Translations under genes and position numbers: made by a program
Assembly: GCA_002205965.3 (NCBI GenBank)
Contig: NADL03000675.1
Span: 868,001 to 932,000, forward strand
Length of the DNA stretch: 64,000 nucleotides
DNA from: Kappaphycus alvarezii
Taxonomy: Eukaryota > Rhodophyta > Florideophyceae > Gigartinales > Solieriaceae
Reading direction: 5' to 3'
Notes under the pieces: model-generated
Databases searched by the model: none
Seen by the model: the letters and a program-made list of their open reading frames with translations, nothing else
What the model was told of the DNA's origin: nothing
In this document: piece after piece, positions 32,046 to 54,192 of the stretch
How the letters are laid out: each line of letters opens with the position of its first letter
Position numbering within the stretch: the stretch's first letter is position 1

Positions 32046-35000
32046 ATGGCCCACCAGAATGGGTCCACCCCACCTCCTCTGTCCCCCGCTGCTCAGCAAA
32101 TGCACGACATTCTCGCTCGCTTACAGAGTCCAGACAACACTCTCCGTAATGCTGCCGAGAACGAATATAACCAAGCCGTCAAACAGAAGGGTCTCTGCTT
32201 AGATGCCCTCTCCACCCTTGCTGCTTGTGTTGGCGTCGATGAAGTTGTTCGCGCAACAGCTGCCGTCCTTCTTCGTCGAGGTGCCAAGATTTATGGGATG
32301 GAGCTGATGAGGTGACGCACAACAACGTGAAAACCCGACTTGTGCTTGGTATCAGAGCTGATGGTCGTAAGGATTTGCGGAAGAAGTTGTGTGATACCAT
32401 CGCAGTAATCGGCGCTCCTCTCATTGACACCGAACCGTCGAGGTGGCCAGAACTGTTGCCTACGCTCTTTGAATTGGGTCGCAGTTCCGTTTCCTACGAG
32501 CGTGAAAGTTCTTTATACATCTTTTCTCAGCTTGCTGACTTCTTGGATCAAAAGGTATTTGCACCACATCTGAGCACCTTGAAGGCCGCTTTCCACGCTG
32601 GTCTGTCAGATGCTGATTCTGGGGTACAGATGGCTGCCCTTCGGGCAACCTGCCGCTTACTCAATCTCTTGGAAAGTTATCTCTGTAACGAATTTGTGGA
32701 CTTGATTCCCTTAATGTTGCACCCTGTGCAACAAGCGGTTACGGCCGGAAATGAGGATGATGCACGACAGGCTATTGAGTTGCTTATTGATGTTGTGGAA
32801 AGTGAGCCAAAGTTTTGGCGCAAGGACCTTCCCGCGGTTTGCACACTTATGCTAAATGTAGCATCAAACACAGAATTGAGCGACGACACAAACACACGTC
32901 AGATGGCCTTGGAATTTTTGGTCTCAGTAGCAGAAAAACTCCCAAGTCAGTGCCGGAAAATGGGCACGTTTGTACGAAGTGTCTTCCCTGTGGGGTTGCA
33001 AATGATGCTGGATCGTGAGGATGATAGTGAGTGGTATGAGCAAGAGGATGAAGAGGACACTTCTGAATATACGTTATTCGACTGCGGTCAAGAGAGCTTG
33101 GACCGCATCGCGATCGCCCTGGGTGGCAAGGCTGTCTTGCCGGTGGCAGAGGCAATCATTCCATCCTTTCTAGGTAATGAGAATTCATGGGTGCATCGCC
33201 ATGCCGCACTCTTGGCCATTTCTCAAATCGGCGAAGGCTGTCAAAAGCAGATTGAGGCTAAGTTGGGGGATGTTATCGAGCTTGCGTTGAACCGCTTTGG
33301 AGATCCGCACCCAAGGGTACGGTGGGCCGCCATTAACTGCATCGGACAAATGTGTACTGACTTCGGCCCCAGAATCCAAAAGGAGTTTCATTCACGCATC
33401 GTTTCACACTTGATAGCTGTGATGGATGATGCCGGGAATCCTCGTGTGCAGAGTCATGCCGCTGCTGCCGTAATTAATTTTTGTGATGAGGCCACCCAGG
33501 TGTTATTGGGCCATATCTTGACGCCTTACTTGGGAAGTTACAAGGCTTGCTACACTCTCCGCACCGTATAACACAAGAGCAAGCGGTTACTGCGATTGCA
33601 GCTGTCGCAGACTCTGCAGAGACCCAGTTCGTGAAATATTACGACTGGTTCATGCCCCGGCTAAAGCAAGTTTTGCGCGCCGCAGCAGGTCGCAAAGAAT
33701 TGAGAAGGTTACGTGGTAAGGTAATGGAATGTATATCCCTTGTAGGCTTGAGCGTTGGCCCTCAGAAGTTCGGGCCGGATGCTGCGGAGGTTATGAACAT
33801 GCTGGTCCAAACTGCTGCAGCTCAGAGTGAGGATCCAGACGATCCTCAGGGTTTCTACTTGATGCAAGCGTATGCGAGAATTTGCCGGTGCTTGAAGGAA
33901 GGATTTATCCAGTACTTGCCTCATGTCATGCCGGGCCTGCTAGAGGCTGCGCGTCAAAAACCAGATGTTCAAGTAAGAGAGTTGAAAGAGGATGAGGAGC
34001 CGGAGGACTCTGTGGACGGATACGAGACAGTGACCATTGGTGACAAAAAACTGAGCATTCGCACCTCAATGCTTGAGGACAAGGCCGTCGCATGTACCAT
34101 GCTTGCCTGCTTCATTGCGGAACTCCGAGGTGGCTTTTATGATTACGTCCAACCCGTCACTCAATTGATGGTCCCTCTTCTCAAGTTTTTCTACCATGAT
34201 GAATGTCGCACAGCTGCAGCTAACTGCCTCCCGGACTTAGTAAGAGGTGTCATGGAATCAAACAAAGATCCTACTGGTTCTCAAGTACTCAGCCTCGTGC
34301 AGTACATGATGCCGCAGCTCTTGGATGCGATCAAAGGGGAGCCGGACGTTGAGGTACTGGTACACATGGTCGATGCCCTTGCCCAGGTGGCTGGCATGAT
34401 TGGGCCTCCAGCCATCCCGCAGGAATTAATGACATCTGCTGCGACAGCGATATCCATGATTCTGCTTGAGAGTGAGGCAAGGAATATTGAACGTGACCAG
34501 CAAGCGGAGCAAGAGGATTGGGATGAGGAAGCCCAAGAAGAAGCTGAAGTTGAGGAGGTCAAAGAAGAGGAACTCCTCTCCCGGATTGCCACCGCAACAG
34601 GTGCACTCTTGAGGATGCATTCAAGTGCGGGTTTCGTTCACGCGTTTAAGACCCCGAGTAAGCTCAGCGAAGGATCTGAGGCAGTCTCTACAATGCAGAT
34701 ATTCTGGCTACGTATGCAAGCCAGTAGGCCGGCGTATGAAAGACAGGCTGCACTGTGTGTTTTTGACGACTTGATCCTATATGGTGGGCAGGAGGGTATT
34801 AACGTAATTTCCGTCGCGTTTCCGGCAATGAAAGCATATTCTATTGATACCGATCCGGAGGTTCGACAGGCTGCATTATTCGGAGTGGGTGTTGTGCCCA
34901 AGTTGGTGGAGATACCTTTGCTGCCAATGGCGGAGTCAGTGTCCTTAGCGACTTGGAGAGAGTGATTCGAGATCCAAACGCACGATCTGAACAAGCAGAA

Positions 35001-35402
35001 TCCGCAACAGACAACGCAATATCAGCATTGCTGAAGATTATGGAATTCCAGCCGAACTTGATGGGCGACGAAGGTCTTTCCTACGGAAACCTTATTCTGG
35101 ATTATCTGCCGGCCAAGGCAGATAAGTCTGAGGCCATTGTAATCCACGCGGCTTTGGTGCGATTTGTTCAAAACGCCGACCCTAGGATAATGGGCGAAAA
35201 TTTGTCTAATCTGCCGAAGATTTTATCCGTCTTCATATCAGTTATAGGGACGCAGTTGATTGACGAACAGTACGCGAGAATGGCTGCGGAGGTCATTCGG
35301 GGTATGCAAACCAAGTATCCACCAGAGCTTTTGCGTGGAGCCATGGCGCTTTTATCAGAAGAGCAGAGGCAAAAACTCCAAGCAGTTGTGATGGCCGGGT
35401 AG
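32046..35402 (+). CDS. Importin-5/Kap121-type karyopherin beta, frame broken three times
   Basis: Ran-dependent nuclear import receptor built of HEAT repeats. The coding span corresponds to about 1119 residues, close to human IPO5 (about 1100). Diagnostic blocks include NSWVHRHAALLAISQIGEGC (residues about 380-400), the acidic insert before it (SEWYEQEDEEDTSEY), KELRRLRGKVMECISLVGL, and the C-terminal LLSEEQRQKLQAVV. Conserved sequence continues in frames 0, 2, 1 and 0 in turn. The joins fall near 32295, 33535 and 34925, each equal to one missing base beside a short run (AG, GGG, AA). Nothing else suggests decay, so I read this as a functional gene with sequence errors. The start has a perfect Kozak context. 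Confidence 0.9.
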
Positions 35403-35530
35403 AAACTCTGGCTCGACGGATAGAACACCGGATACTTTTCGGGGAAGGTGACGGTACTAAGCTAGGACCTTTTGGCTAGGAGTAAAATATTACAATAGAA
35501 CCGAAGGTTATGAATGTGCATAGTCGTGAA

Positions 35531-36333
35531 TCAAGAATGACCTGGTGATGCGTTCTGTTTGTGATTCTCTGCGTGAATTGTCTGCAATACCCAAGCCCAT
35601 GGTTTTGATGGTGCGGACACTAGTTCGTAATGATCACAATCAAACAATCTGTATTCCCATTTTCCGCTACCGTCTGAGACCAATTTCATTCGCTCAAAAA
35701 GCCGGTGAACTACAGAGTGTGGGACATCAACGTCACGCAAACCCGCCACAAGCGTGACATTCAAATGCTGTAGTCTGTCGATCATGTCCATTGGGCAAGC
35801 GCATTTGTACTTTTCGGGATATCGTTGGGATTGCCACCCATGTACCTCTGGACCGCGTCGCCGTCATCGCTTAGTCTGAGACTCACTGCCTCGCGTAAAT
35901 CTGCAACAGGTGCCAGTGCAAATGTGCGGGTTGGAACCATTCCGCCAGATGCCTGCTCTTGCGCAGCGAGCCAGAGTGCAAGGGTGCCTCCCGCGGAATG
36001 ACCCAAAACGACAACGCAGTCTGTTTTTATATCGGGGCGTTGGGTAACAAGACGATAGGCGGCGAGGACATCTTGGTTTGTGCCGGGATAGCCCCAGCCG
36101 GGAGCATCTGAGCGTCGGTATTCTACCTCGGCAACCATGTAGTTGAGAGACAGGAGATCTGGGGCCAGAGTCTCAATGGCTGCTGTGGGCGGATCAATGC
36201 CATACTTGGACTTCCAGAAGCCACCGTGAAGGATGACAACGAGGGGGTGTGGGGGCGGCGTGCTCGGCGTATACAGAAAGATGAACTGTGAAGTGTCGGG
36301 GCCGTATGGAATTCGTAGAGGGACGGCACTCAT
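35531..36333 (-). CDS. Alpha/beta hydrolase, kynurenine-formamidase/esterase type, one frame break
   Basis: The ATG at 36333 (MSAVPLRIPYGPDTSQF) gives about 267 residues. It carries the oxyanion-hole motif HGGFWKSKYG, the nucleophile elbow GHSAGG, the acid in GLRDVDVPHSVV and the catalytic His in DHYELV, so the triad is complete. HGGxW near the N-terminus is the signature of arylformamidase-like and BD-FAE-type esterases. The second part lies in the -1 frame; the join near 35805-35815 is a run of four A that would need five. In-frame sequence upstream of 36333 is untypical and probably leader. It is convergent with importin (gap 128 bp) and divergent from the SET gene. Confidence 0.8.
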
Positions 36334-36546
36334 TTCGGGAGAAGGATGGTGACACGTACTGGAGTGGAGATTGTGTTGTGTAGAAAATGACTTTAAGGTA
36401 ATTTCATTTTTGACATATTTGTGCAGGCGGATTTCGGACCATGAATCGAATTCAATCTCCGCACCATTCAATGCGCACTTGGTGTCGTTTTCCCATCTGC
36501 AACTGTAGCAGAGTGCGTTGCGAGTCTCTCAATTCCAGTCTGCAAC
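36334..36546. promoter_or_regulatory. Short divergent promoter between hydrolase and SET gene
   Basis: The two ATGs are 213 bp apart and point outward, so this segment must contain both promoters or a shared one. No TATA box or known operator is visible. Confidence 0.4.
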
Positions 36547-38151
36547 ATGTCGCAACTTTCAGTACCGCAGCTTCAGCGGTTTGCGTTTGTCCCATGCGGA
36601 CTTGGCGTCTCGGCCAACCGGCCCTGGTTGTCCAGTAATAACTCGGACTATTGCAGGGCACGCTCACAATCACGCCTCTGTCGGATCCATTCTACACCGA
36701 CAAGGTCGCGGGCCAAAGGCCCAATTTTGCAGCCCGAATGCTCATCAGCGACGCCATCATCGAAGCCGGGGTCCCTTTTCACGTGGCTCAGCGAGAATGG
36801 GGCCAAAGTAGCGAAACAAGTCAACGCCAGCCCTCGAGATGCTCGACGCAAGCTTGGTGTTTGCCTGAACGGCGCATTGTCAAAGGGGACACAAGTTGCG
36901 GTTCTGCCCGAATGTGTATACCTGACATCGCGTTGTGCAAAGGCTGCATTGCAAGGCGAGGTACCGGGGATTGCAGAGATGGGTGGGGCGGGGGAGGTAT
37001 CAGATGCGAGTTGGCTTGCATTGCAAGTAGTGTACGAGCGGTGCAAGGGGGAGGAGAGTAGATACGCGATGTTGATAGATTCGCTGCCGGGGATGGGGTG
37101 TTTGGACTCGTTGGGATTGTGGAGGGAGGTGGAGTTGGAATGGTTGACGGGGTGTGGTGTGAAGGGACGTGCGGAGGAGGTGCGGGAGGGGGTTGCGGAG
37201 GAGTGGGGGGTTTTGTTGGACGGGGGTTGGTTGGCAAGTTGATGGGCGGGGTGGGGGAGGAAGGGTTGGAGATGTATCGGTGGGGGGTGGGGGTGGTGGA
37301 TGAACGGGGGGTTAATGTGGGTGGGGAGATTGTGGTGGGGCCTGTGGTGGGACAGTGTGTGGTTGGGGGGTGGAGAAGAGGAATGCAAGGGTGGAGGTGG
37401 TGACGACGGGGTTGTTGAGGAATAAGAGGATGGTGAGGGTTGTGCTTGAGAGGGATGTTGAGGAGGGGGGGGAGATTTGTTTGGGGGTTGCGGGGGTGGG
37501 GAATGCGGATTTGTTGTTGGAGAGGGGGTTTGTGGTGGAGGAGGAGGGGGCGGATATGGTGGAGATGTCTTTTGCGTTGACTAGGATGGATAGGTTTTAT
37601 GAGGATAAGATAGATGTGGTTGAGCAGTTTGCGGAGGGTGGGGAGAGGGAGGGGGATGTGATGAGGTTTGAGTTGCGTGATGAAGGCGAGGGGGTGTGGA
37701 CGGCGCCGGAGGGGATGGAGGCGTTTGTGCGGCTGGTTTGTTTAGGAGGGACGGATGCGTTTCTATTGGAGGCGGTGTTTCGGAATGAGGTGTGGGGTCA
37801 TATGCAACTGGCGGTGAGTGCGGAGAATGAAAAAGCGATGTGCGACTTGGTGGTTGGGGCATGTGAGGACGCGTTGGAGGGATATGATGAGGTTGCGGCG
37901 GGGGAGGCCGAGGATGAGGCCGGGAGGGCAAGGGCGGCTATGGCGGAACGGATTGTTGGGGCTGAGAAGAGGATTTTGCAGAGGGTGGCAAAGGCGTATA
38001 GAGACCGGCCAACTCGTTGGATGCGTTGGAGTACTATGCGGAGAGGAGATTGAATGCGCTTGACTTGCTGAGACCTGTGGATGAGTGCGAGATTGTCGAC
38101 TCGGACAGTGGAGTGCGCGTGGGCCGCGCGTTTGATGAGAATTACTATTAG
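36547..38151 (+). CDS. SET-domain lysine methyltransferase-like protein (Rubisco LSMT/SETD family), frame broken three times
   Basis: About 535 residues. The N-terminus is rich in Ser/Arg/Pro without acidic residues for some 80 residues and could be a plastid transit peptide. Then SLFTWLSENGAKVAKQV and NGALSKGTQVAVLPE match the start of LSMT-type SET domains ('F..WL..NG'). GEICLGVAGVGNADLLLERG corresponds to the 'GEE..ISYG..SN.eLL..YGF' element. A helical LSMT-type C-terminal domain ends EYYAERRLNALDLLRPV. Reading moves through frames 1, 0, 2 and 1, each step equivalent to one lost base (near 37235, 37360 and 38015). The region where LSMT has D-x-x-N-H reads PVVGQCVVG, so the usual Asn-His is not evident. 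G+C and G-runs are unusually high on the coding strand. Confidence 0.65.
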
Positions 38152-39710
38152 CATGATGGTGGTGGTGAGTACGAGATGTGTGTAGGGGTCGGAGTAGAGA
38201 CAGATGTCGGGAAATGTACAGTACTGTACGGACGGAGCAGTGCTGTACAAGAATGCAGTGCAAGTACTTGGAACGCTATAGTGAACGGTTTGAGAAAAAG
38301 TAAACGCCGGGTGCGAAAGGACACGTGGTTTAAAGGGATTGGGTAGAAGTAAGATATCTGTATTACTTGGTGAACTGCAGACAAAGAGATTATAGCGCTC
38401 CGATTGGTGGAGTGGAATAAGATCTGGACTATAGTTGGGCGGCGGTTTTGAAATGGCTCGCGATGACGTTGGCACATTTTGATGGGGGGCAGAGACTTTT
38501 TCATTTTTATTTATTTTTCAGGATTGTTCTCAGACAAGCATTGAAGGTAATTTTAGGCCGGGCTTTTCTCAATGTACAGTACAGTACAGTACAGTATAGT
38601 ATACTATCGAGGGTATTGTTGAAATGAGAATTTCTTCCAGCCTACGGACAGCAATAATGAATGTGGCATGACACATCCAAAACTCTGCCACTCTTTCCGT
38701 ACACACCAAAAGCTAAACATCCACTTGACCCCCACCTATTGGAATCTCCCACCCTGCTTCAAACAGCCAGTGGCTACTCACCAAGCACCCAAACTCCAAA
38801 CCGTCCTAATGTCGCACAACGGTTGGCACACCGTCCACTGGATCTTTTCTTTCTTTTCCAAACGCTGATTCGCCCACCCCGCTGCATTTCTCCTCGCGCC
38901 AACCCCCTCATTCCGTACACCTTACCCCCGCTAGCAATGATTCAACAGCACATGGGAGCGCACTCGTTTGTTGCGTGATATGTACGGTAACATGTGTTGT
39001 ATGGGGTACTGCGGCGTTTACATCGCGCGGGGTGTATTGCTGAGTGCCTTGTTTTTTTTGGAGCAGCAGCGTTTTCCGGCTTGAGGCTCACCGTTTAGCC
39101 ACTTGCTTGTTGGATGGGAATACTGGGTGGTGCACTCAGTAGTGGTGCTGTACGTATTGTCGCACTTGCGAGCATTGAAATTCACTTCGAATGGTGGGGG
39201 CGGGGTGGTGTGTGTGAATGGTCTCGGCGCATGGAGATGTGTGATGTAAGCAGTAGGCTTCGAGGGGTAGCTGCTAGCTAGCATTGGAAATCTATTGGAG
39301 ATACCGTACTGTATATAGGCCACGATGGATTCCTTTGCAATAAATGGACATGGCTATTTTTTATATATATTTTTTAATTTTATTTCCTGGTCTCGTTAGG
39401 CGCTAATCCTCTTCGACGGTAGGATGCCCTCTCATTTTCTCATACTCGACAACCGCGTTGCATCACAAGACAAATCTGACTTGTCTCTTTACTCCCCATT
39501 ACCGTAGGCCCTGCACACTCGCTTCTCGCCGCTCGCTTCTTATTTTTAACCTCCGCCCTCCTCACAACACTCACCCCTTCCTCGAATCACCTATCGTCTC
39601 CATCCGCATACGCCCCGCGTCACAATCCCCGCCAATCTCACCCGGCAGACTCCCACCCTATCCACACCCCTCCAACAACGCCCACCCCACTACATCCCTC
39701 TATTCCCGTC
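38152..39710. other. Intergenic with two TACTG clusters and a C-rich leader
   Basis: TACTG/CAGTA units occur at 38216-38250 and 38572-38607. From about 39440 to 39710 the plus strand becomes extremely C-rich, as in the leaders of other genes here. ORFs in both segments look like composition artefacts. Confidence 0.5.
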
Positions 39711-41178
39711 ATGACCCATCCCCTGCATCTCTCCACACCCGACCGCTACTTTGACCGTCCCTCCACCTCAATCACCAATACTCTCCGTACCTCAAACTCC
39801 TCCCTCCGTTCCTGCCCGCCCTCAAACACCCAGGCCATCCACCCCATCCGACTCTTCTTCTCCGCCCGCGATCTACCAGAGCCTGATTCCCGTTCCCACG
39901 CCGCCCTCGCCGTCATCTACTACGCCCAAGAGTCCCCCACAACCTCCCTCCCTCGTTCCAGCTCTGTTTCCGACACTCACGACAACTCCCCTCCACGTCG
40001 CACCTCCACAAAGTCCCTCACCCTCGACAACCTCAAATCCTCCCCTCCACTGCCACCCAATCACCGTACCGTACCCCAGTCAAACGTGCCTCCTCCCTTC
40101 CTTTGCCCCATATTCGAAAGGCACAGTCTACAGTCCAACGAGCGCCCCATTACGCTGTCAAGCATTTCGCACCCTCCAACCCAGAGCACTTTTCTGCTAG
40201 TGATGGTACCCTCATGCACCGCACCGCCTGGTTTGAGTTGGGCACCACCGATCTGGCCAGGAAGCATGGCCGTGACGTCGAGTTTGCACACAGTTTTGCA
40301 TTCAACTACATACCCTCCGTCACACAGCTTTTGCGTGTCGCATTTTACGATGCTACCAGCAAGAAGGTAGAGCGTCATAGACTTATTGGTATCGCTCAAT
40401 GTCGCGTCTCATCCGTTTTTGCCGCAAAGGGAAAGCCATTGTCGTTTCCGTTGCGCTTCTTGCCCCTGTCGGAAAAGGATGCCAAGAGGAGTTCCAAAAT
40501 TCCAGAGGGTACCCTCGTCGTTGCTGCCGAGCAGCTCGTCACCACCCCGGAAAAGTTTCGCCTTGATGTCGAGTGCAACCGCATCTTGCGTGCAAAGTCT
40601 TTGGCCATATCGTCCGTCAAGCGCGTGTTTTACACCATTCATGCCATCTATGATGAAAACCCTCGCTCGGACAAGTGGACCCTCATCTTCCGATCTGGTA
40701 CCGTGGAAATGATTCATCGCAAGCGCGACGGTGGTAGCTTGGAGTACAACTACTTTTCCAGTCGGCGACTTATTGCCGCCCGGGCGTTATCATCGAGGAT
40801 AAGGACGCCAAAGCACGAGAGAGGGCAGACCGCGTTGCGCGCGGTGAATCTGTCACTAGAACATCTAGCACTGGTCTTTTGGGACACGTCAAGAGTGCCA
40901 TGGGTATCAGGCAGAAGGAACGATTCTTCTCATTGCCGGGCGCCGATATCTCCCTCGTAGATCCGTCTACGAGACTCAAGCTCTCCTTGTATGAGGATAA
41001 TGGCGTATCGGCAGGGTTTGAATTGATTGCAGATACCGCATTTTGTTTCAAGGACTTGCAATCTTGGAAACTTGGCCAAGCTTCCCCGATTAGGGTTCAC
41101 GCCAACACTGTCGGCAAGGCGGCCCTCAAGTACGTAGAGTGCGGCCACGATCCCCGCTACTTTTGTCTCTCACTTTGA
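39711..41178 (+). CDS. C2-domain protein with copine-like N-terminal region, frame broken twice
   Basis: After a Pro/Ser/Thr-rich start, HPIRLFFSARDLPEPDSRSH resembles the first strand of a copine C2A domain (L-x-S-x-A-R-D-L). FELGTTDLARKHGRDVEF, LLRVAFYDATSKKVERHRLI and GIAQCRVSSVF continue a C2 sandwich. A second C2-like unit lies around WTLIFRSGTVEMIHRKRDGG and LKLSLYEDNGVSAGFELIAD. No von Willebrand A domain follows, so it is not a full copine. Conserved sequence runs through frames 0, 2 and 1; the joins near 40045 (run of C) and 40780 (CCCGGG) each need one more base. Calcium-binding aspartates are incomplete. Membrane or phospholipid binding is inferred from the fold only. Confidence 0.55.
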
Positions 41179-42194
41179 TGCAAAGCATGCGATAACGACC
41201 TCATGGAATGTCGAGGCAAAGTTTCCATGGACTCTAAAGGGGCCATATGTCCAGAATCTGTAGAACCTTTTTTCAGTGGTAGTGAAACCATCATCAATTT
41301 GGTGATAGAAGCGTGATAGCAAACTTAGCGATCACACTTGAATGACTCGGAAAACTTTTCGGGGAACGACCGGGTCAAGTGGAACGTTGTAGGTGACCAT
41401 CGCAGCCAGGGCAGCATGTGTTTGTCACGGAGGTATCAGGGATGACTTGCTCCTGCATGTTTTGAAAAGCAGACAAAAGGAGGGTTCCATGGGATTTAGA
41501 ATAGACAGGTGCTTTGGGCAGTGGTTTTTTTGCCCAGGTAGGAATCCGACTGCTTGTGGCAGTACTAGACTGAGGCTCCTTGTGAACCCATGGACAAGTG
41601 TGAACCTGGGTCTTGGAGTAACCTAAAATCCGTTCACTGGGAAGCCGATTCTGTGAAACAGATTGTAGTACTTTGATGCTGAAACATTCTCAGCACCAAG
41701 TTCTGTTGACTACTTGCCAGAATTGAACTCCTGTCGAGAAAAGGGAGTCTGAAATGGGCAGATCGACTTCTGTTGCGACCTTTGAGCAAATATCAAGGTG
41801 ACTTACAGATGACAAGATCAGGGATGACAGTTGCGAAGCTCCGCAGCATGCCATGTTTCAATTGAGGAATGGTGATGCTGGTCCTTGCGTCATATCGTGT
41901 CCGACATACCACGGAATCTAATTTCAACGTAGTCGCCAGCTGCATAATGTGTCAGTCTTGCAATCATCGAAAATTGCAACTTCTCACGAGACACAGACAG
42001 TTCAAATTCTTGAAGCAATCTACAATGTGCGTGCGTAAACCTGGGCAGAGCTCTCTCGCAGAAATCTGTTCCTTCTGTGGATCGCCGCGAGACCCACTCT
42101 TCGTTCAGCGGGCCGCTGCTTCACTGCCTGCGAGAAATCAGAATACAGCAGTTGCCAGGTTTTTTGTCATTAGGGAGTAAGAGCAATCACCGCG
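41179..42194. other. Intergenic, nothing recognised
   Basis: Only short unconvincing frames. It should contain the C2 gene 3' UTR and the promoter of the first p24 gene. Confidence 0.4.
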
Positions 42195-42859
42195 ATGAAA
42201 GTGTTTGTGCTGCTCGTGCTTATCGTGGTTGTCACAAAGACACTATCGATGCAGATGGAGCTCGGCTTTGGAGAACGCAAGTGCTTCAACGAGGAGGTAC
42301 CTTTTGATCGCCCTCTTCTTGTTGATTTCCATTGCGCTGCTGGATCGAAACCAATGGAATTAGATCTGTTTGTCACCAACCTGAATGGCCAAGTTTTACT
42401 ACACAAATCTGGTCTATCACATCATCGCACAACAATTGAAGCACCGGCAGCTACCAACAAGAGTCTGAATGAATTACCCACGAACTAGCGTTTACGACAT
42501 ATCGGTTCTGTGCGATGCATCAGACTGTGCCTGGTCAAGTTGCTGCCGAGGCTCAAAGGAAGATTGAGTTTGAGATTCGAGCTGCCAGCGTGGAGAGCGA
42601 TACCTCGGGTGCTCTAAAAGCTAATCACGCAAGTGACACACACGCAGCTATACGTGAGTTAGAGGGTGAGGTCATCGAATTGCTAAGGAAAATGGACACT
42701 CTGAACGAAGGGGAGAACATGTTGACAAGGATGAATGAAACAATGTCAAGATTCGTTGTTACGCTTGGCTCATTGGCAAGTCTGGTGGTGTTGGCTGTTG
42801 GAACCTTGCAGCTCGAAATTACTCAGGTTATTCTGAGGAAAAGGAGGTTGATTCGCTAA
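42195..42859 (+). CDS. p24 family (emp24/GOLD) cargo receptor, one frame break
   Basis: Type I membrane protein of COPI/COPII vesicles that helps select cargo in the early secretory pathway. A signal peptide (MKVFVLLVLIVVVTKTLS) is followed by a GOLD domain beginning LGFGERKCFNEEV, with TTYRFCAMHQTVPGQV at its end. A coiled coil of about 45 residues (HAAIRELEGEVIELLRKMDT) leads to one membrane helix (FVVTLGSLASLVVLAVG) and a short basic cytosolic tail (ILRKRRLIR). The frame moves by -1 at CCC near 42477. Length, once the lost base is allowed for, is about 221 residues, normal for the family. The tail has dibasic residues but no FF pair. It is convergent with a second p24 gene. Confidence 0.8.
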
Positions 42860-43217
42860 CCGCGGGGAACTAAGCTGTGTCTAGTCGAAAGATCCGAAGG
42901 TAGTAGGGCTGAAGATAGAAATTCAATGGATAAAGTACGGTATGAAAGACTGTCAAGCAACTTATCGAGGGGTCGCGAAAAGGTAGTCGGTTGGCCTTGG
43001 TCCGCCATCATCCTTGTACACATCGCCAGTACCAAAAGCTTGTTGCCTTTCGCACATAGTCGAGTGTAATCTCTGAGGGACTGACCCTTCCGGCCTTTTG
43101 TCAAAGAAAACTCGAGAAGCGCGATATCGTGTGTAGTAGGCCCCTGGGTTCAGTTGTAAGTAGACTGCCATTCTGTGCAATATAATCAAGACTGTGCAGC
43201 GCAGGTGCGAAGGGCTT

Positions 43218-44174
43218 TCAAGTAACTGCTCGCTGTCGCCCGTCAGCCCCTTTGACCAAAGTTGCCATGCTTGCTGTGCGAGAAATACCCACATGACTTG
43301 GTAATGAATCCCTCTTCTCGCCCTTCTCCAAGGAAGACCCAACTAAACTGCCAATACCGCGCGGCAAAACCAGGCTTCCTGTCCTGTGCATCCTTCTCCT
43401 TTTCCTTCGCGTGCCCTCCGAAGACAGATATGCGCCAAGAACCCTAAGTTCACCCTGGGTTTGATGCAGCTGGAAAAACCCGGCCGCAGATATGGCTGCA
43501 CAACTTAGTATACCCATTATCCAAATCTGATTGGCGACGCGCGCTGTAATTTCAAACAAGGCTGTCTCGCGGTCCCGAATGGCATCAATTTCTTCTCGGA
43601 CGCCGTTTAGAGTGCGCTCAATGGAACGAATGACGGCCTTCATATCGTTAACATCTTTCTGACGGGCCACACCTCTAAGTGCCTTTGCGGTCTCCGTCGC
43701 GTCCTCTAAGGCATCAGGATCACTGCTGGAATCAAAAGTGATGTACACTTTTCGTGAATCGGATGAACTGCCAGGCTTGAAGGCCTCTCGGTTGAAAACA
43801 CACAGCTTGTATTCGGATGGAGGTGACAAGTGGCCGAGACCTCGATGCGGACCCTCCGGAGTAGTAACTGTGAATTTTTCGTGGTCGGCATTTGACTTGG
43901 AGAGGAGTATTTGATTCGTGGAAGCGACAATAACCCAAAAACCAATGGTCATATCTCCCTCTCCATTAGTTACACGGACTTCTCCAGTCAACTGATCCTT
44001 AGCAGGTGCAGTTGCAGTAAAGCATTGAGTAGCCCCACGTTTCAAGTAGAAGATTAGGTGATCGCGTTCTGCAACTGAACTCGTGCAAAAAAAAAATAAT
44101 ACGAACACGGGGAGGGACCGCAAGCGAATTTCGATGGTCCTGCGGGATACGGTATCGGAGATTTTGTGGCTCAT
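43218..44174 (-). CDS. p24 family (emp24/GOLD) cargo receptor with a long C-terminal tail
   Basis: A single unbroken exon of 318 residues. The signal peptide is LRSLPVFVLFFFCTSSVA (about 18-35). The GOLD domain begins FYLKRGATQCFTATAPAKDQ and ends near SEYKLCVFNREAF. The coiled coil includes VNDMKAVIRSIERTLNGV, the membrane helix is about IWIMGILSCAAISAAGFF, and then a basic tail RRKRRRMHRTGS continues for some 85 residues. Family members usually end within about 15 residues of the membrane, so the tail is odd. It may be genuine, or a lost base may have removed the normal stop. It sits tail-to-tail with the other p24 gene, 358 bp apart. Confidence 0.8.
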   Translation of the reverse strand: MSHKISDTVSRRTIEIRLRSLPVFVLFFFCTSSVAERDHLIFYLKRGATQCFTATAPAKDQLTGEVRVTNGEGDMTIGFWVIVASTNQILLSKSNADHEKFTVTTPEGPHRGLGHLSPPSEYKLCVFNREAFKPGSSSDSRKVYITFDSSSDPDALEDATETAKALRGVARQKDVNDMKAVIRSIERTLNGVREEIDAIRDRETALFEITARVANQIWIMGILSCAAISAAGFFQLHQTQGELRVLGAYLSSEGTRRKRRRMHRTGSLVLPRGIGSLVGSSLEKGEKRDSLPSHVGISRTASMATLVKGADGRQRAVT

Positions 44175-44538
44175 GGTGCACGAATCGGGTGGGATACCAT
44201 CGGTTTTTTTTTGTCTCGACGGAGAAGGCTGAAATTGACAAGCTGTCGAAGACGGCTTTTATGGTTGAAACAATAGACAAGCTTCTAATCAATGATGCAC
44301 TGCAGATACATCATGTACGAGATGATTCCAACCTTGCAAGGACCAGGAAAAAAAATCGACAGTATTTAACATCAAAATAGAAAAAAAAGCATTCATCTTC
44401 AATTCGAACGAAAGCAGACAGTGCATACAAGGATGGGGTCCTTATAACTACCGCATGCCAGTCCGGTTATGCTAGGCCATGTTCCAGCTAATTCAATCAT
44501 CCGTCGGTTGAGACCCCCACAAAGAGCATTTGGAAGAG

Positions 44539-44546
44539 TATAAAAG
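44539..44546 (+). promoter_or_regulatory. TATA box of the ABC ATPase gene
   Basis: TATAAAAG lies 60 nt upstream of the ATG at 44606, the spacing expected for a TATA box with a 25-35 nt leader. Confidence 0.6.
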
Positions 44547-44605
44547 GTCAAGGCTGTGGAGAAGCAAACGGCAATCTTCACTCAACTCACAACAATTTTC
44601 TCAAA

Positions 44606-45667
44606 ATGGAGTGGTGGCTCGAAAGAAGTGAAACTACATTGGATGAGGATGACGACGAAGATGCACTTACTATCCAGCCGAAAGACAACTTGCTCAATCC
44701 AGAGCATCTTTATACCCCAGAGGTCTACACAAAGGCACCAGGCGGTTTGAGGCTATCAGGGCTAAGCGAATCGTCAAAACTTATCCCGTCGACGAGGGCG
44801 CTAACGGAAGGTGAAGGCGCTAAACAGTATATCTCTTTGGAAGGATGGTCCAATTGACGCGATACTCGGGGAGAATTTGTGATGGTCATGGGACCCAAAG
44901 GATCAGGGTAAGTACCAAACAATCTAGCGGATGTTCTAATTTGTTTCTTTCAAGAAAAAGTGCAAATTTGCTCTAACGCTAACATGCCTTTCTATCCAAT
45001 GCAAATCCTTTTACCTCGACAGCAAATCAACATTCCTCAGAACCATTGGAGTATTGGACTTTGCCGACAGTGGGGACCTAACCGTGTTTGGTCGCAACGT
45101 GACCTCAAGCTTAACCAACTATCCCGAAAATTTGCTTTTCATGAGAATCAACTACATCGGGTATGTTCTGGAAAAACCTATGCTCATGTTCAACCTCAGC
45201 GCTCTGGAGAACGTCGAGTTCCCGATGATGCTCTGGGGCCAGCACACACCGGATTATAGGCGAGAGCGTGCACAAGAGGTGTTGCAGGCGTTTGGCATCG
45301 ATGCATCGTCGCCAACAGCAGTATCGCAGCTGAGCAGAGTGAGCAGCAACGTGTTGCTATTGCTCAGGCCCTCGCAAACAAGCCACGTCTTCTTCTCCTC
45401 GACGAACCGACGAAACACCTATCCCATGAGGAGACGATCGATTTGATGAACTACATCCAGGATTACAGCCGGCAGGGGCAGTACGTCACTACGGTGATGG
45501 TGACAGATAACCCCCTTCTGTGCTGTTACTCAAATCGAACGCTCATGATGGAGAACGGGGCGATTGTCGGCACGAGATCCAATTACGTTCGTCGACGGCT
45601 CGACAAGGCAAAGTATGTGCAACACATGCTGGAGTGCGGAGAGCAAATGGAATGCGGAGAAAGCTAA
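44606..45667 (+). CDS. LolD/MacB-type ABC ATPase subunit, spliced, disrupted
   Basis: Exon 1 is 44606-44907, the intron 44908-45022 (GTAAGT...CTAAC...CGACAG), and exon 2 runs 45023-45667. Splicing creates the Walker A GPKGSGKSTFLRTIG across the junction. Then come SALENVEFPMMLWG (the signature of the LolD/MacB subfamily 'LTALENVELPL'), EQQRVAIAQALANKPRLLLL with Walker B, and DEPTKHLSHEE. The Q-loop reads IGYVLEKP, where Gln is expected, and the switch region reads MVTDNP, where His is expected. A TGA at 44855-44857 lies in frame in exon 1, and exon 2 needs a -1 step near 45330 just before the signature motif. It could be an active divergent ATPase with sequence errors or a young pseudogene. 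Confidence 0.6.
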
Positions 45668-46092
45668 CGCCGAGCGACCAGGCCCTCGCCAGTGGCATAA
45701 GCACGCAGACTGTGAATGATATCATTGTCATACTCCGGTGGTGGGGCCTCTTGGGTCATGACCCATCGCAAGACATCGGGAGTGGCAGCCTCGAGAAGAT
45801 GCTCGACTGCAGCGACTTGGTGTTGATTCATGGTAGGAACATGCTTTGCAGCCCAGCCTCCAAATAAAATATCTAACTCGAGCCAACCGCGATTCCTGCT
45901 ACGATAGATGATACGTCGTTGACGGGTAGGGGTTTGGCGGCATGACGGGGCCTGCCTGGGGGCGTTTTTGTGAATGTCGAGCCATTGCTTGGCGGGAGCC
46001 TGTGTAGACAAGGCGCGGACATTTGGGATTTTTGGGGACATGTGGTAGTGCAAGCAAAGCATGGAGCGACGTAGAGATGATGCTCGAATCAT
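45664..46092 (-). CDS. SDHAF2: Succinate dehydrogenase assembly factor 2, mitochondrial (SDH5)
   Basis: Promotes covalent flavinylation of the SDHA subunit of respiratory complex II in the mitochondrial matrix. The ATG at 46092 gives 142 residues and starts with a basic, acid-free presequence (MIRASSLRRSMLCLHYHMSP). The conserved core RRIIYRSRNRGWLELDILFG matches the family's R-x-[L/I]-Y-x-S-x-x-R-G-x-x-E-x-D motif, and LRWVMTQEAPPPEYD matches its C-terminal W-x-x-x...P-x-P element. It is intact and intronless. The upstream frame lacks an ATG. The 3' end overlaps the stop of the convergent ABC gene by 4 bp. Confidence 0.9.
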   Translation of the reverse strand: MIRASSLRRSMLCLHYHMSPKIPNVRALSTQAPAKQWLDIHKNAPRQAPSCRQTPTRQRRIIYRSRNRGWLELDILFGGWAAKHVPTMNQHQVAAVEHLLEAATPDVLRWVMTQEAPPPEYDNDIIHSLRAYATGEGLVARR

Positions 46093-48189
46093 TGTAATAA
46101 AGTGTTGTGATGACAAACGTTTGTGCGAAGGGGTCGTGGACGGCAGCGAGATGCTGGGGATTACCGTTCTGAGCAGGTTGCCAGATTGTGAAAGAGAGGA
46201 CGGATCGCGCCTAAGTTGCGTCACGGCAGTGCGCAATTTACTCAGAGTACAGCGGGCGATTCAGACAAATTGCTCAGCGAGGCGGCTGACTACACCTTTT
46301 GGCTGCAATGGGTTGTACAGTAATGTACCTCATTAACTGTACCATGAGAGAAGTTTAATGCATTCAGTATACCATACTGTAGCATACTTTACTGTACTGC
46401 TCTGTACAAGACCCCGCGTCTTACCTCCTTTCACTGCTTTCATGAACCATCGCACCTTCAAAACGCGTAAAGTAGGGGGTATATTTACTACGAGACTATA
46501 GAGGACTCAAAATCGAGGGAGTGCTAGCTACTAGAGAGTGGGCGTTGCAAAAAGCAACAGTCCTATTGTATAACATGGATCCATTACAAATGCATAGGGC
46601 TCCCCATAATCCAAACCCATTCGGCCCCTTTCGAAACTACATTACGCATTGATGACGACGGCAATCCAACGAGAGCGACATCGGAGTACAAACTCCATGA
46701 GCTGATTCACAAGTCATCCTGTGACGCATCGCACCCCACGACACTCCCCAACGCAACCCGCCTTGGCATTTCCACCCTTCCTCATTCGTCTTTCCTTGCC
46801 ACATCCCCACTTCCGTCCAGCTCATTCTACTCCACCCGCGCAGCCTACCATTACCCTCCTTCGGTCCGCCGTTCCACTCTGCTGCCATCTACCACCACAC
46901 AAAAAGCAACAAGCTACAGCTCATAGCGGTTGTGCGCACGCTCAAGAATCCCTGGTTTGAAAAAAAAACAACCCGCTCGTAATCTCCACAGCTGATGTCA
47001 GTTACGATGGAGATACTCCTGCGGAGACTATGTCATGGCGTGTAAGCTTCGATTTGGCATCATCGCCCAACTCAACCACGTGTGTAACCATCATTTCGCA
47101 AATGGACCGGATGTCGTTCGAGACCACCAGGCCACTGCTGAGCGGAGCACCGTCGAGGACCGGAGAAAAGAATTACAAATTTGGTTGATTACTTTCTAAA
47201 CTCACCAACTTCACCTACTGGTACTTTATTGCCCACTCGACACCGGCGGAGCAGACTGCAATTTTCAATTAAAAGCCGGGTGCGAGTTTGTGGCTGCAAA
47301 TGTGTTATCAGGGTGACATTGTTGCGAAATAAACAGCCACGGAGCCGGGCGTCGTTACGAACAAATCGGCTGCCTATGATTGTAGAAGTTGATGCCCATT
47401 GAAAATTGGGCTTACATCGCAGTTGGAGATTGCTGGAGAAGAATCGGTGGGACTGCTACTTTGCTTGTTTTGCAATTACGGAATTTGTGGACATCAGCTG
47501 CAAACCACATCAAGGCGATTCGTATTTCGGAAACGAGTGTCGCCTTCCGGCAGCTTGAAACCTAACATTCTTAAGCAGATCGCGTTTCGATGAAGCTGGC
47601 AGTTTGACTGGTGGCAAACAACCATTTGATTCAATTCGAGCAGCGATCGGCATTTATGAATTAGAAATGCTACAGCATTATAAAGCAATTGGTCACTGTA
47701 CAGTACTGTTCACTGAACACTGAACAGTACTGTATGTCTGTCTAAACACTGTTCAGTGTGCGCTGTATCGTAGTGTACTGTCTGAACGCTACCATACAGC
47801 GCAATACAGTAACCAGTCCCTCGATGAGACTCGAGAAAATTCACAGCTCATACAGCCGCAGAGAAAATCAACAGATCCATACAGCCCCAGTGACAGTGCT
47901 CAGCTCCAAACTGTAAAACCCCGGTTACTCCGTCACTAGATGTACGCATCGAAACGCTATACTCTGGTCAAGCCTTCCCTGCTAGTAAAGCATGCATCCC
48001 GCTTCATCCACAACTTTTCAACAGCCGAACAATACAGAGAAACACAAAACAACCCGAGCCGCGTCACCTCAACATCATCATCGCCTCTTGCACACAACAG
48101 CACGTGCCGCCCTCTACCCCACCCAACTTCCTCCGCACACCACTTACCCATCCCATCCCAAACTTCCCCTCCCCAAATAAATTCCCGTC
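46093..48189. other. Intergenic with TACTG clusters, no recognised gene
   Basis: TACTG-type units lie at 46312-46410 and 47693-47816. A C-rich leader-like segment lies at 46700-46900, and the sequence after it (about 46930-47600) has scattered frames in all three phases that could be a broken, unrecognised gene. I cannot support a model. Confidence 0.35.
47701..47732. repeat. Perfect 12-bp inverted repeat (hairpin) in a TACTG cluster
   Basis: CAGTACTGTTCA and its reverse complement TGAACAGTACTG are separated by 8 bp. An RNA or single strand would fold into a stable stem. Confidence 0.7.
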
Positions 48190-49231
48190 ATGCCCCCAAC
48201 AGCTCCTGCATGGCTCCTGACCGCCCCCCCACGCGCTGCATTCCAAACCCGACTCTACACCACACACCGCACCATCCCTCCGCAACCAGCGTTCACCCAC
48301 ATCGCGTAGCGCTCCAAGTCCAGTACAACGGCACCTCATTCCACGGCTGGGAATCCAAACCCCACCTTCCCACCATCCAAGCCACTATCCGCGATGCTCT
48401 GCATGCTATAACCCGCGCCACGTCCCCATCACCGCCGCCAGTCGCACCGATGCCGGCGCCCATGCAATCGGCCAAACTCTGCATTTTGATATTGTAACGC
48501 CCTGTTTTGCAAAAGCTGAGTAAGTCCTTCCTCTCGCTTGCATGTACCATCTTTCATCGTCACCGACACCCGCCCCATGTTCTCTGACTGTTGCACCTAT
48601 ATGAAACAACTATAGCGCATGGACGAGAGCGTTGAACCGCAGGTTGCCTGCTACTGTTCGAGTGACTCGTGCCGCGTACCCAAACTCGGCGTTTGATGCC
48701 CGACATAGTGCGGTGTGGAGGCATTACCGCTATACTGTGTGCACCGCTTCTGTGCCGAGTGTGTTCCTCTCCCCGTTTACCTGGCACTATTATCAACACC
48801 CGCTCGATACGTCCGCCATGTATGCCGCAGCTCAGTATCTGCTTTCCGCTGCTCCACGCGACATGTCTGCCTTTCGAAAGGCAACGCCCCCGCGTCTCAT
48901 ACTAACATTCGCGTTGTAGACATAGCCATCACAAAATCTGAAAATCTAGTGCATCTGGATGTCACTGCCGATTGGTTTGTGTACGGCATGATGCGCCTGT
49001 TGGCTGCAACTCTGGTGCAAGTGGGCACGGGTCGTATGTCTGTACGCAGTTCGCAGAAATCGTCGAGCATAACAGAGAGATCAGGTGTTGTTCTCGGCTC
49101 CGGCTTCTGGGCTCTGTTTGATGCAAGTTGGTTATCCGTCTCATGTAGATCCATTTCGAGACCCGCATACCAGTATGGATGGTGCAAATGAGTTGCAGCT
49201 TTGGTTACAGAGACCGTCGCTTTCGTCTTGA
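48190..49231 (+). CDS. TruA-type tRNA pseudouridine synthase, spliced, frame broken five times
   Basis: Isomerises uridines in the tRNA anticodon arm. Exon 1 ends 48519, the intron is 48520-48615 (GTAAGT...CTATAG), and exon 2 ends at TGA 49229-49231. The N-terminus MPPTAPAWLLTAPPRAAF has no acidic residues and looks like organelle targeting. Family motifs in order: VALQVQYNGTSFHGW, the catalytic SRTDAGAHA (Asp), FDARHSAVWRHYRYTV, RDMSAFRK, ADWFVYGMMRLL and the C-terminal APASGLCLMQVGYP. Successive blocks fall in frames 1, 0, 2, 1, 0 and 2, all -1 steps and several at C or A runs. The motif set is complete, so the gene is probably functional. Confidence 0.8.
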
Positions 49232-50307
49232 GGCTTTGGTATTCGTCAGCAACTACTTGCGAGTGGTGTGTCAGCGGTGCCGACGGAAACCACAATTTCC
49301 ATATCCAGTGCCTGTATTTGGAATGGATGCAGCACCACGCGCTGCTCTGTCGATCGAGTTGATTGTCAAGGAAGCGAAAGGTCGATTGTGTTTGCTGGTG
49401 AGATTGATGGCGTGACTCTTAGGATGAGGGATGAGATATTCCCAACTGCGATGCCAATGGGAACTCTTTGAAGGGCCTGCACCCTGATGGGTTGATTGAT
49501 GCATACCATTCGAGAGATTCGATCGCAAAATTCGCAGGCGCCTCTCGCCACAGTCAGGTAGAGAATGTGGAGGAGGAGGGAGAAACTTGACTCTGAGCTG
49601 CCATGCGGGGTGCATATGAGCAAATGGAATGATACACGATAACATGTGTCCCGGAGTAATGACTCTTGTAAAAACATTTAGAGCCTCCTGAACGGATCCC
49701 CTTCCTCTCGGGAGGAAGTTGGTGGATTTGTAGACCACGCATGTGGCCAAAATGGCTGGCTTGTGTCGCCATTCCTCACACTGCTGAACTTGCACTTTCC
49801 CTATATCTTTGCATTTATTCATGTCGCGGGTCTTTTCACATAAAAACCTACCTAGAGGGTCAAGATGACCGAGGCATGGCCACTTCACTGTTGCACAAGG
49901 CGCCTCTCCGCATGCAGACGTCTGTAAACGCTCAAAGATAGACGTGGGGTTTTCTTACTACTCATGACGCATGAAGACATTCCTTCGATGACTCCGATGG
50001 TATGCACAATGGAAGTCGTCGCGATATGCCCCTTAACCTCTCCGATTAAGTTTCTGTCCTCTCATGAAATTCAGCGAAACTGTCAAATGTGAATATGTGG
50101 AAGGTCGTAACAGCATTGTTCGGGGCCAGATTGTTATTCCGATTTCCAAAAGCGCGATAATCGGATTACTTGCAGGTGCTCAGTTCAAACAACTCAATGT
50201 GCGATGTGAGAGACCGGTAAGGGCGAGCCCTCTGTTCTTGAATGCATTCTTTTCTGTGCTTCCATACTGCAATGTGCAGACTGAGTGCTTTACTTGTTAG
50301 ATTGGCA
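49232..50307. other. Intergenic between convergent TruA and copine genes
   Basis: Several overlapping frames on both strands, including a long minus-strand one from a GTG near 49888. None carries a recognisable domain. Confidence 0.35.
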
Positions 50308-52491
50308 TTACGGAGGGGGGGCTTGCGGCGGAAAGCCTGATTGCGAAAAGGACGCCTGCGGCTGCAACATGCCCGGTTGGCGTATGGTCCAGCCTGATCC
50401 GGGTTATAGCTTTGTCCCCCAAACGCTGGTACTGTCGATGTAGGCGGCACCTGCTGTTGATACGTTCCGTACTGCGACAGTCCCGAGTACTGAGAACCTA
50501 TGGTCGTTTGCCTTGTAGGCGCCGGCGGAACTGCAGCAGAGGGTGCTGCTCCTTGAGTATTATAACTGTACTGGAGATTCGATACTCCAGTTTGGATTCC
50601 TGGTTGCTGCATCGAGTGTTGCATATGCATTATCGGTTGGGCGGGCGGGGTCAGGGCCCGTTCGTCGCAGTTCTTTGAACAGAATTTGGAATGTATGGAC
50701 CGGCAGGCTGTTGTTCATGACTGCTCACAGCACGCGATGCTTCAATGTTCGGAACAATATCACTCGGCTTGATGCTCTTGCTTCTCATGTATGACACCAA
50801 CTGTCCGGGTATTTCGTCAAGAACTTCTCGTGCGAGCTGAGTGGTATTATATCTGTGCCTGTGAAACTGGACAAATGGACGATATCTCTCCCACATGGTG
50901 TTCCGTCAGTAGAGCACAACGGAGTTTCATCTCCATCAAGTCTCTCCAGCTGCACAAACCTCGAGTTCCCAACTCCGACAATAACAATTGACAAGGGCAA
51001 GTCTGCAGCAGCGCATATGAGATTTGCAACGTCCGGGAAGTCGACAAAGTCCCCATCAGTTACCAACAGCAATACCGTGTAAACAGTTCTCTCATCTCTC
51101 TCGTCTTCCTCCTTTGTCATGCGAATGACATGTTCGAGAACCGGTGCATACATACATGGGCGATACGGGCAACGTTGTTCAAGGCATTGTAATACATATC
51201 TATGACGCCCTCGATGCCGTTGCACACAGGTTGCATGATGTTTCCAGTAAGCGCAAAGCAATGAGCGGTTTCGATATAGCTCGGGGGCAATGCCGCTCCA
51301 AAGCCAAAGGCCGGGAATGTCTTTGAAGTATCGTAAGCGGCGAGTACGTTTCCAACTTCACGCAACGCTATGACATACTCATTGGGTGCTTGACGATTGT
51401 TGTATTGCAAGGATGAGGGATCTGCCGGATTCCCATTCGTAGCGGACATGTCGACAGCAACCACCAAATTCATGATGGTTCCGCTGCGAATGTAATCCAA
51501 GAATGAATACGGGATGGAGATGTCGCATTTCTTGACAGTTAAGACGCCCGCGTCAACTACTTGATGATTCGTTTTACGCTTGCGCAAATTGAACCGGACG
51601 CCTGATGACCCGGCCGACGACATAGCAGTCTTCAATCCCTTGAGCGTGAAAGTAGCAACCCACCGCGGTAGTGATGTCCTCTGCGGTCATAATCGAAAAA
51701 TTCGACCTTCAACTCACGGTCCATATCGCTATTGACAAGTGTGGCCAAGGATTTGGTCGTGGGCTTGAAATTTGTTTGCTGGTGGCCTCCGGTATAATTT
51801 TGGTGTACCTCTGAATATATGACGGGACCAAAGTCATCATCGTTGCGATTTTTGCGACTAAGGACGTAAAAGGGCTTGCGACCTCGACGCAAACCTGAAA
51901 CGGCGAACTGAAAGGTGACGCTGTCACCTAGATCTCCCTTGTCCTCCTCGCCTCGAATGGTGAGAGTACCGAGATTCTTGTTGCGAAGCTTGTCATTCGT
52001 AACTTGAAGGACAAGACGCTGATTGTCAGCGAGGACAATCTGAGCGACGGTGCAACGAACCTGGCCGATATAATCTTGCCTGGAGAGGTCGTCATCCTTG
52101 GAATCGCGATCGTAAATACTAAAACGAAGAACGAAATTAGAGCCGAAGCGATACTCCATGGGAAACGTGGTACTCCATTGGGGAGATAGGTTATTGTAGA
52201 CGGTTTCAGTTTGTCCCATCTTGACCCATTCCTCACGACGGGAGGCGGTATCGACTTTCCTGTAGAGGACGACGAAGGGATCGGAGCGACCGTTGCGATC
52301 CATGTTGGGGAGTTTTGAAGCCTCTAGTTGAGGGAGATTCGCATAGGTTTTGTGTTTTCATCTTCGGCGATGGCTGAGCGGGAGCCGAGAGACGCGCCGA
52401 CTCCCGAGGACAAGGATTCATTTCGAGGTAGGGAAGAAGATTGCGGGAAGGGAGGGTGGGCGCTCCCGGATGATGAACTGGGCGAATCCAT
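50308..52491 (-). CDS. Copine (C2A-C2B-vWA), frame broken five times
   Basis: Calcium-dependent phospholipid-binding protein that brings partners to membranes through its A domain. It starts at ATG 52491 with a Ser-rich tail (MDSPSSSSGSAHPPFPQS). C2A: KLPNMDRNGRSDPFVVLYRK with the paired calcium-binding Asp, and IYDRDSKDDDLSRQDYIG. C2B follows, with VEFFDYDRRG. The copine A domain starts SIPYSFLDYIRSGTIMNLVV and has DMSATNGNP (MIDAS-like D-x-S-x-S/T), FPAFGFGAALPP and VLLLVTDGDFVDF. The C-terminus (ending at TAA 50310-50308) is Gln/Pro/Tyr-rich. All five frame changes are equivalent to a single lost base; the first is near 52315 and the last near 50390. The complete architecture argues for a live gene. 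Confidence 0.85.
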
Positions 52492-52967
52492 GAGTCAACG
52501 GGGAGTAAACGGGACGACAGGAGAAGATGAGAGAGGAGACACTAGATAGGGAAGATGGATAGGGGCGGGTAGGGTTTGCTCGGCAGAAAACGGTTTGGAG
52601 GTAGAGAATGAAATTTGTCAAGAGGGGGTGGTTGCACGAGAAAAGCGAAAGGGCCAGGACTGTGAATTAGGTAAAAGGACGGAGAGGGCGGTCGGGCGGG
52701 AGTGGGCAGGGGATAGGGCCAACGCTGACTCGTGGAACTAGAGTGGAGGAGTACTGAAGTTGGGATGGGAGAGGAGCAACGGGATGGGACGTCTGGATGT
52801 GCACAGCAGAACCCAGTCCAAGGGCGGTAACGATGAAGCGAAACCGTACTGTTAAGTGGCCGATGAACATTTGGATTTTTTGTTTTATTTCTCCTACGGG
52901 CCATATCCATTTAGAGCGGAATGAGTATGACCCAGTTGTTATTGAATACATTTACAGTTTTTTCGTC

Positions 52968-53232
52968 CAGTGCAGTACTGTACAGTGTACTACAGTGTAC
53001 TGTACACTGTTGCAAGTACAGTACTGTATTCATGACACTTTAAACAGTCAGAATGCAGCATATGTCCATATAGCCACATAGGGCCAAGCAGCTCGGCTCA
53101 GGACTCTTGACAACACGACAACTATTCGGCACACAGTACAGTACTGTACAGTACCGTATAATGTACGAGCTACATACACCGTATTGTACGGATACTGTAC
53201 ACTGTAATGTACAGTACACAATCTACCCCTAT
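52968..53232. repeat. TACTG/CAGTA cluster with GTACACTG variants
   Basis: Two patches, 52968-53030 and 53133-53225, rich in GTACAGTACTGTAC-type palindromes, between the copine and TMEM230-like genes. Confidence 0.8.
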
Positions 53233-53622
53233 GGGAACTGTATCCGGCTCTTTTTGGTCTAGTACGGTAACAGGCGGATTTGCTTCACTGTATCCAACAA
53301 TTCAACGCCTCCAGCATGAAAATGTTCATTCTATGCTGAATTTTACATTAATGTAACTGTATCACCCTCCACCCCAGGAATGCAGGTTGTAGCGAGGTGC
53401 CGGAATCATTTGTTGCAAGTTGCAACCTTATCTAGTCCTCATCTTCCACTCACGTATGACTTTGCGAGCAATCCGCCGGCGTCCATTCCAAATGAAACAC
53501 CGCAGAAATGTAGTATTGCTTACCAACGATAATCATCCCAATGTGCAACTGTGCATTGCCAAAAATAAACAACAGATCAATCCAGATTCACCACAAGGCG
53601 TAGAAACAGAAAAGTCGTCAGT

Positions 53623-54192
53623 TCATTCCTTTCCACCATGTTCCGAATCGTGCAACGCGCGGCAAATCCACACAGTCAACCTACACTGAGTTACATCAAA
53701 CCCTGTCACCCCTCTCATCCATTGCACCAGGTTAAACACAAGATATCCACCCGGCAAAAAGCACAAGCTACCAATTACAACAAACGCCCAAAACAACCCC
53801 AAATCCTCATCCCGAAAGTGTAAAAACGCAAGCAACAAAAACGTAATCCCTGTTCCAAAGAGCAACAACGCTACCACACAAGTGCGCCATGGAAACGACG
53901 CCCTCGCCTCCCCGACGGACTGCGACGAAACAGCGATGACTCGCTAAATCGCGACTGAGACGTGTCGTATAATTCGGGCGCGATTTCATCCTGTCACACG
54001 CCAAACCGCACGGTGTACACAAATAGGCCATTGTTTCACAGCGGTTAGAGGATTTCCATGCTCCGCACTCGCGGTTGTGTTATCCATGTGAGAATCATGC
54101 CGCCCGCTTACATCCCGGTATGGATCTCGTCGACTTGCAGTGCGTGTTTCGGAGAAAGATGCCGACCCCCTGCTCATATTTCGTCGTTCCAT
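53623..54192 (-). CDS. Two-helix membrane protein of the TMEM230/TMEM134 (DUF872) type, two exons, one frame break
   Basis: Exon 1 (54192-54112) encodes 27 residues (MERRNMSRGSASFSETR...). The intron 54111-53991 begins GTAAGC, carries a CTAAC branch site near 54047 and ends GACAG; exon 2 starts DEIAPELYDTSQSRFSESS. Two membrane helices follow, VVALLLFGTGITFLLLAF and AFVVIGSLCFLPGGYLVF, with the family's 'G.l.FLPG.Y' motif and a short tail after MRGVTGFD. A -1 step at a GGGG run near 53908 joins the N-terminal and membrane parts. TMEM230 acts in vesicle trafficking; that role here is by similarity only. Confidence 0.65.

Follow-up and report, generated by a model that had tools for sequence, protein, structure and literature searches.

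Conserved genes that cannot be read in a single frame raise the question of whether the frame changes belong to the organism or to the record of its sequence. This question is posed by nine neighbouring genes in a stretch of 64,000 nucleotides from the red alga Kappaphycus alvarezii, referred to here as the window (positions 868001-932000 of contig C671, in a draft assembly of 336,021,096 bases and 884 contigs). A preliminary description of this DNA counted about 22 reading-frame breaks, all of the sign -1, and preferred base loss in sequencing or assembly to a pervasive -1 mechanism of translation as their explanation. In the current analysis 21 joins in the nine genes have been confirmed, and frame arithmetic gives -1 for every one of them, each being equivalent to one missing base; the remaining join, a fifth one at the N-terminus of the TruA gene near 48300, is undecidable because two frames are open there. 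Base loss is borne out by a second copy of the locus on another contig, C754, and by a polyubiquitin control. Judged from these comparisons, the breaks are most probably (about 0.97) sequence errors in which single bases have been lost from the consensus of the draft assembly, and the genes would be intact.

The nine genes were read in all three frames, and this reading was combined with Pfam domain matches occurring in different frames. Searches against solved structures, with X placed at the joins, gave matches for the importin, copine, TruA, SET and ABC genes and, weakly, for p24. The sign of the breaks was examined with a local protein-to-DNA aligner that charges equal penalties for the loss and the gain of a base (standard penalty 14) and permits introns; it was applied to six broken genes and two unbroken control genes. 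Nine of the 21 joins rest on reading by eye, outside the aligner calls. The broken genes, with the intervals that contain their joins in window positions, are as follows.

32046..35402, forward strand: importin-5 (IPO5/KPNB3-like); three joins, at 32247-32315, 33487-33571 and 34848-34943; Pfam matches in two frames and an IPO5 match (E-value 1.1e-175); the aligner recovers two of the three joins and misses the third because it lies beyond the end of the target.
35590..36350, reverse strand: alpha/beta hydrolase; one join, at 35782-35838; Pfam Abhydrolase_3 and frames.
36547..38152, forward strand: SET / Rubisco-LSMT-like protein; three joins, at 37188-37242, 37313-37382 and 37999-38053; Pfam Rubis-subs-bind, an LSMT match to the C-terminal part only, frames, and one join called by the aligner.
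39711..41180, forward strand: gene labelled a C2-domain protein in the preliminary description, with no Pfam match; two joins, at 40012-40107 and 40737-40832; frames only.
42195..42859, forward strand: p24/EMP24; one join, at 42470-42488; Pfam EMP24_GP25L split between two frames (3-71 and 67-174), and aligner.
44606..45666, forward strand: LolD/MacB-like ABC ATPase; one join, at 45302-45397; match to PDB 5xu1, and aligner.
44908-45022, forward strand: intron of the ABC ATPase, GTAAGT..AG, found by the aligner.
48300..49170, forward strand: TruA pseudouridine synthase; four joins, at 48376-48471, at 48834-48919 and two in 49002-49117; match to E. coli TruA, and all four joins and the intron called by the aligner.
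48520-48615, forward strand: intron of TruA, GTAAGT..AG, found by the aligner.
50200..52360, reverse strand: copine/BONZAI; five joins, at 52324-52360, 51632-51689, 51117-51208, 50825-50908 and 50651-50703; Pfam C2 and Copine in three frames, a BONZAI 1 match, three joins called by the aligner, and frames.
53650..53990, reverse strand: TMEM230/134-like protein; one join, at 53873-53946; Pfam TMEM_230_134 (E-value 1.4e-5, just under the cut-off) and frames.

The two control genes lie further along the window.

54879..56186, forward strand: TFIIH p44/SSL1, unbroken in the window; match to PDB 5o85.
56455..57965, reverse strand: PH-domain protein kinase with two GTAAGT introns, unbroken in the window.

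Over 2,190 aligned codons of the six broken genes the aligner called twelve events of -1 and none of +1, -2 or +2, and over 604 codons of the two controls it called no frame event at all. If losses and gains were equally expected, twelve out of twelve would have a two-sided probability of about 5e-4, and 21 out of 21 of about 1e-6 (our own arithmetic). The counts are unchanged at a penalty of 18, and at 24 the TruA gene yields two events of -1 and one of -2. Lower penalties admit gains, two single ones at 10 and seven single ones together with one +2 at 8, all located in IPO5, BON1 and TMED9, with losses the more numerous at both settings. Of 26 single-base losses planted in the sequence the aligner returned 24 as -1, and of 26 planted gains it returned 23 as +1; none of either kind came back as the opposite single shift.

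The host is a eukaryote and the genes of the window contain few introns. A GT..AG intron restoring the frame has been ruled out for the 12 joins at which the aligner, permitted to open introns, still called a loss; the other nine were judged against this explanation by eye. The aligner did open introns in three genes, the kinase, TruA and ABC; those of TruA and ABC are not among the 21 joins.

Elsewhere in the assembly the DNA of the importin gene is matched once, at 98% identity, on contig C754, which holds the second copy of the locus; the two contigs align from 30.5 to 60.5 kb of the window. Of the 21 join intervals, 15 contain at least one additional base in C754, compared with a chance expectation of about five (our own arithmetic, from 119 one-base shortfalls in about 30 kb and intervals of 72 bases on average). 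The supported joins are importin 1-3 (1, 1 and 3 extra bases, with 0, 2 and 1 lacking), the hydrolase join (one extra, another lacking), SET 1-2 (one extra at each), C2 1-2 (two and one), the p24 join (two), the ABC join (one extra, two lacking), TruA 3-4 (two across the overlapping intervals), copine 4-5 (one at each) and the TMEM230 join (one). Exactly one extra base, with no other insertion or deletion, is found in six intervals, namely importin-1, SET-1, C2-2, TruA-4, copine-4 and TMEM230.

The breaks also differ between the two copies in the reverse direction. The p44 and kinase genes, clean in the window, are broken in C754, where the aligner calls nine events in the former and two in the latter. 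Another gene has C754 one base short at eight places.

43218..44174, reverse strand: second p24/EMP24, unbroken in the window; Pfam in one frame; open reading frame of 318 amino acids.

Altogether the aligner called 28 events of -1, four of -2, 14 of +1 and one of +2 in 2,591 codons of C754, that is 32 losses and 15 gains, some of the losses being joins shared with the window. In this run only 31 codons were aligned to the p24 target, and the two introns of 46-48 bases called in LSMT and p44 are probably not real. Counted over the genes listed here, shortfalls of one base number 45 in the window and 99 in C754. Since C754 shows gains too, the one-sided sign is local to the window contig and not genome-wide.

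Polyubiquitin provides a yardstick for the same assembly. The array on contig C458 (locus L001) has all 531 of its 531 aligned residues identical and a single -1, and the array on contig C43 (locus L006) has 13 events of -1, one of -2 and none of +1 in 671 codons. These 14 events, about 7 per kb, occur in an array with 664 of 670 aligned residues identical and no stops. The six unmatched residues are confined to a stretch of seven positions in a single unit and apparently represent a single out-of-frame patch, which was left uncounted.

Coding constraint between the two copies was examined in 12 of 13 genes, TMEM230 and the join intervals being left out, and includes one further gene of the break region.

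45667..46092, reverse strand: Sdh5, unbroken within its Pfam domain Sdh5; Pfam and frames.

Among 4,358 ungapped codons 101 differ synonymously and 42 non-synonymously between window and C754, and C754 has gained no stop in them; gaps affect another 114 codons. These figures suggest that most of the genes are functional. The preliminary description had reported only one in-frame stop, in the ABC gene, and this observation holds: the TGA near 44855 on the forward strand is identical in both contigs. A single lost base offers no explanation for this codon.

A number of observations weigh against reading all the breaks as lost bases. Nine of the 15 supported intervals contain other insertions or deletions in C754 or more than one extra base, and C754 alone therefore gives no clean read-through. 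No extra base is present in C754 at SET-3, TruA-1, TruA-2, copine-1, copine-2 and copine-3, and the ABC stop is common to both copies. In the SET gene, unlike its neighbours, non-synonymous differences (20) outnumber synonymous ones (14), and ABC shows three of each. An event of -2 equals +1 in its effect on the frame, and one such call was made in the C43 array and four in C754; these are entered among the losses, the aligner having preferred -2 in spite of its higher penalty. C/G runs of at least three bases occur in five of the six shared-join intervals, in 15 of the 15 others and in 75% of random intervals. Being common elsewhere as well, such runs leave the six shared joins unexplained, and run context as their cause was rejected as indistinguishable from chance. 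The simplest account of these six joins would be base losses that recurred in both copies.

The same observations bear on the mechanisms by which intact products could be made from the DNA as given. Pervasive -1 recoding, in which ribosomes or slippery transcription shift the frame in real mRNAs, would account for the single sign of all 21 joins and for the six joins identical in both copies, and Euplotes is reported to recode across its transcriptome with shifts of the opposite sign (PMC4759687). Canonical -1 programmed frameshifting shares the sign of the shift but differs in its signal, as no canonical X XXY YYZ heptamer stands in register at any of the 21 joins over the whole stretch in which both frames are open. 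Euplotes shares with the present locus the frame changes of one sign in many genes of a genome; its shifts are +1, a sign seen in none of the 12 aligner events and none of the 21 joins of the window, and the extra bases and the events of both signs in C754 are further differences. The copine gene would need five successive shifts. The two control genes of the window require none over their 604 aligned codons. Pervasive -1 translation, the exotic alternative of the preliminary description, is thus unsupported and we regard it as extremely improbable. A restricted form, in which the ABC TGA and the six joins common to both copies are real and are read through by non-canonical -1 slippage while the other 15 joins are ordinary error, appears very unlikely.

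Decay of the genes themselves under deletion-biased mutation would fit a cluster of nine neighbouring frame-broken genes, the stop shared by both copies of ABC and the relaxed look of SET. The signs expected of pseudogenes, namely relaxed constraint and stops arising by substitution, are confined to that one stop and to SET alone. The excess of synonymous differences and the absence of gained stops argue against dying genes, as do the breaks themselves, most of which differ between the copies, and the C43 array, which keeps its residues in spite of its 14 events. We consider real pseudogenes to have scarcely any likelihood. RNA insertion editing of the kind known from myxomycete mitochondria, in which bases absent from DNA are added in RNA, would yield mostly one-sided missing-base breaks; in Physarum mitochondria the single C insertion is the commonest and about one edit occurs per 25 nucleotides of mRNA (PMC3285571). 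That system is mitochondrial, whereas the present genes look nuclear, three of the aligned ones having GT..AG introns (TruA, ABC and the kinase), and it fits poorly here, since at 15 of 21 joins the DNA of the second copy itself contains one or more extra bases and events of both signs occur in that copy. Its probability is next to nil.

Loss of single bases from the consensus, the reading preferred here, would have come about through an unevenly corrected draft assembly, and the reads were probably long reads. One report on Canu consensus correction describes the remaining nanopore read errors as mostly deletions (PMC7671305), and another links deletion errors in a nanopore assembly to homopolymer runs two to eight bases long (PMC12007338). 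The locus resembles such assembly errors, which are mostly single-base losses enriched in short homopolymers, break the frames of conserved genes and have a rate that depends on place. It differs in that most of its one-base differences fall outside runs of at least three bases. Such runs make up 17.8% of the bases, and they hold 38 of the 119 places at which a single base is missing from the window relative to C754 and 54 of the 200 at which C754 lacks one. Base loss is only partly linked to runs. The earlier statement that many joins fall on short runs is accordingly a weak one: a run of at least three bases lies within six bases of 14 of the 21 joins, at positions chosen by eye, against 47% of random places.

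Two other approaches were tried and set aside. A hidden Markov model of codon usage with loss and gain states called 16 losses, five gains and 18 stops, and was dropped in favour of homology since it marked as coding some DNA without any known gene, an overcalling due to weak codon bias. Homopolymer lengths showed runs of at least six bases to be somewhat rarer than expected from an order-2 Markov model in most but not all of the stretches examined, a deficit judged too weak for use. Patterns used to find relatives in the viral_contigs and genome_contigs collections matched 2, 2 and 35 stretches, none of which encodes a relative.

The genes recognised outside the break region include Rce1-like, AAA_33, glyoxalase, TFIIH p44 and the PH-domain kinase. 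Outside 32-54 kb no break was seen in the Rce1-like and AAA_33 genes, each with one Pfam frame, in p44 and the kinase, or in the glyoxalase gene, where Pfam covers half and the rest was read by eye across an intron. No border is claimed for the cluster of breaks because one-base shortfalls relative to C754 continue to 60 kb. From 60557 to 64000 on the forward strand a Copia-like polyprotein frame, read from the translation and supported by no Pfam family, apparently changes frame once, by -1, near 63.3 kb. Positions 10001-31500 are AT-rich and gene-poor (31-44% GC), and the two contigs are about 82-90% alike there with incomplete collinearity.

Pairs of contigs elsewhere in the assembly also differ by single bases, as exemplified by loci L013 and L014, with 12 places against 1. 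Four pairs (C476/C692, C733/C715, C619/C460 and C510/C816) agree at about 95-98% in their best blocks and less closely in others. These four pairs give the impression that the assembly retains both haplotypes or else two subgenomes.

The genes of this locus are thus almost certainly healthy ones whose recorded sequence has lost single letters in sequencing and assembly, which leaves no exotic mechanism of translation to account for. A draft assembly can mimic recoding, and one-sided frame breaks can be the residue of uneven consensus correction. Comparison of two copies of a locus within one assembly, or the reading of polyubiquitin, nearly sufficed to recognise this without new data, and two polyubiquitin arrays in a single assembly provide an internal measure of how good the consensus is locally. 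Gene predictions made from this assembly of K. alvarezii are likely to be fragmented.

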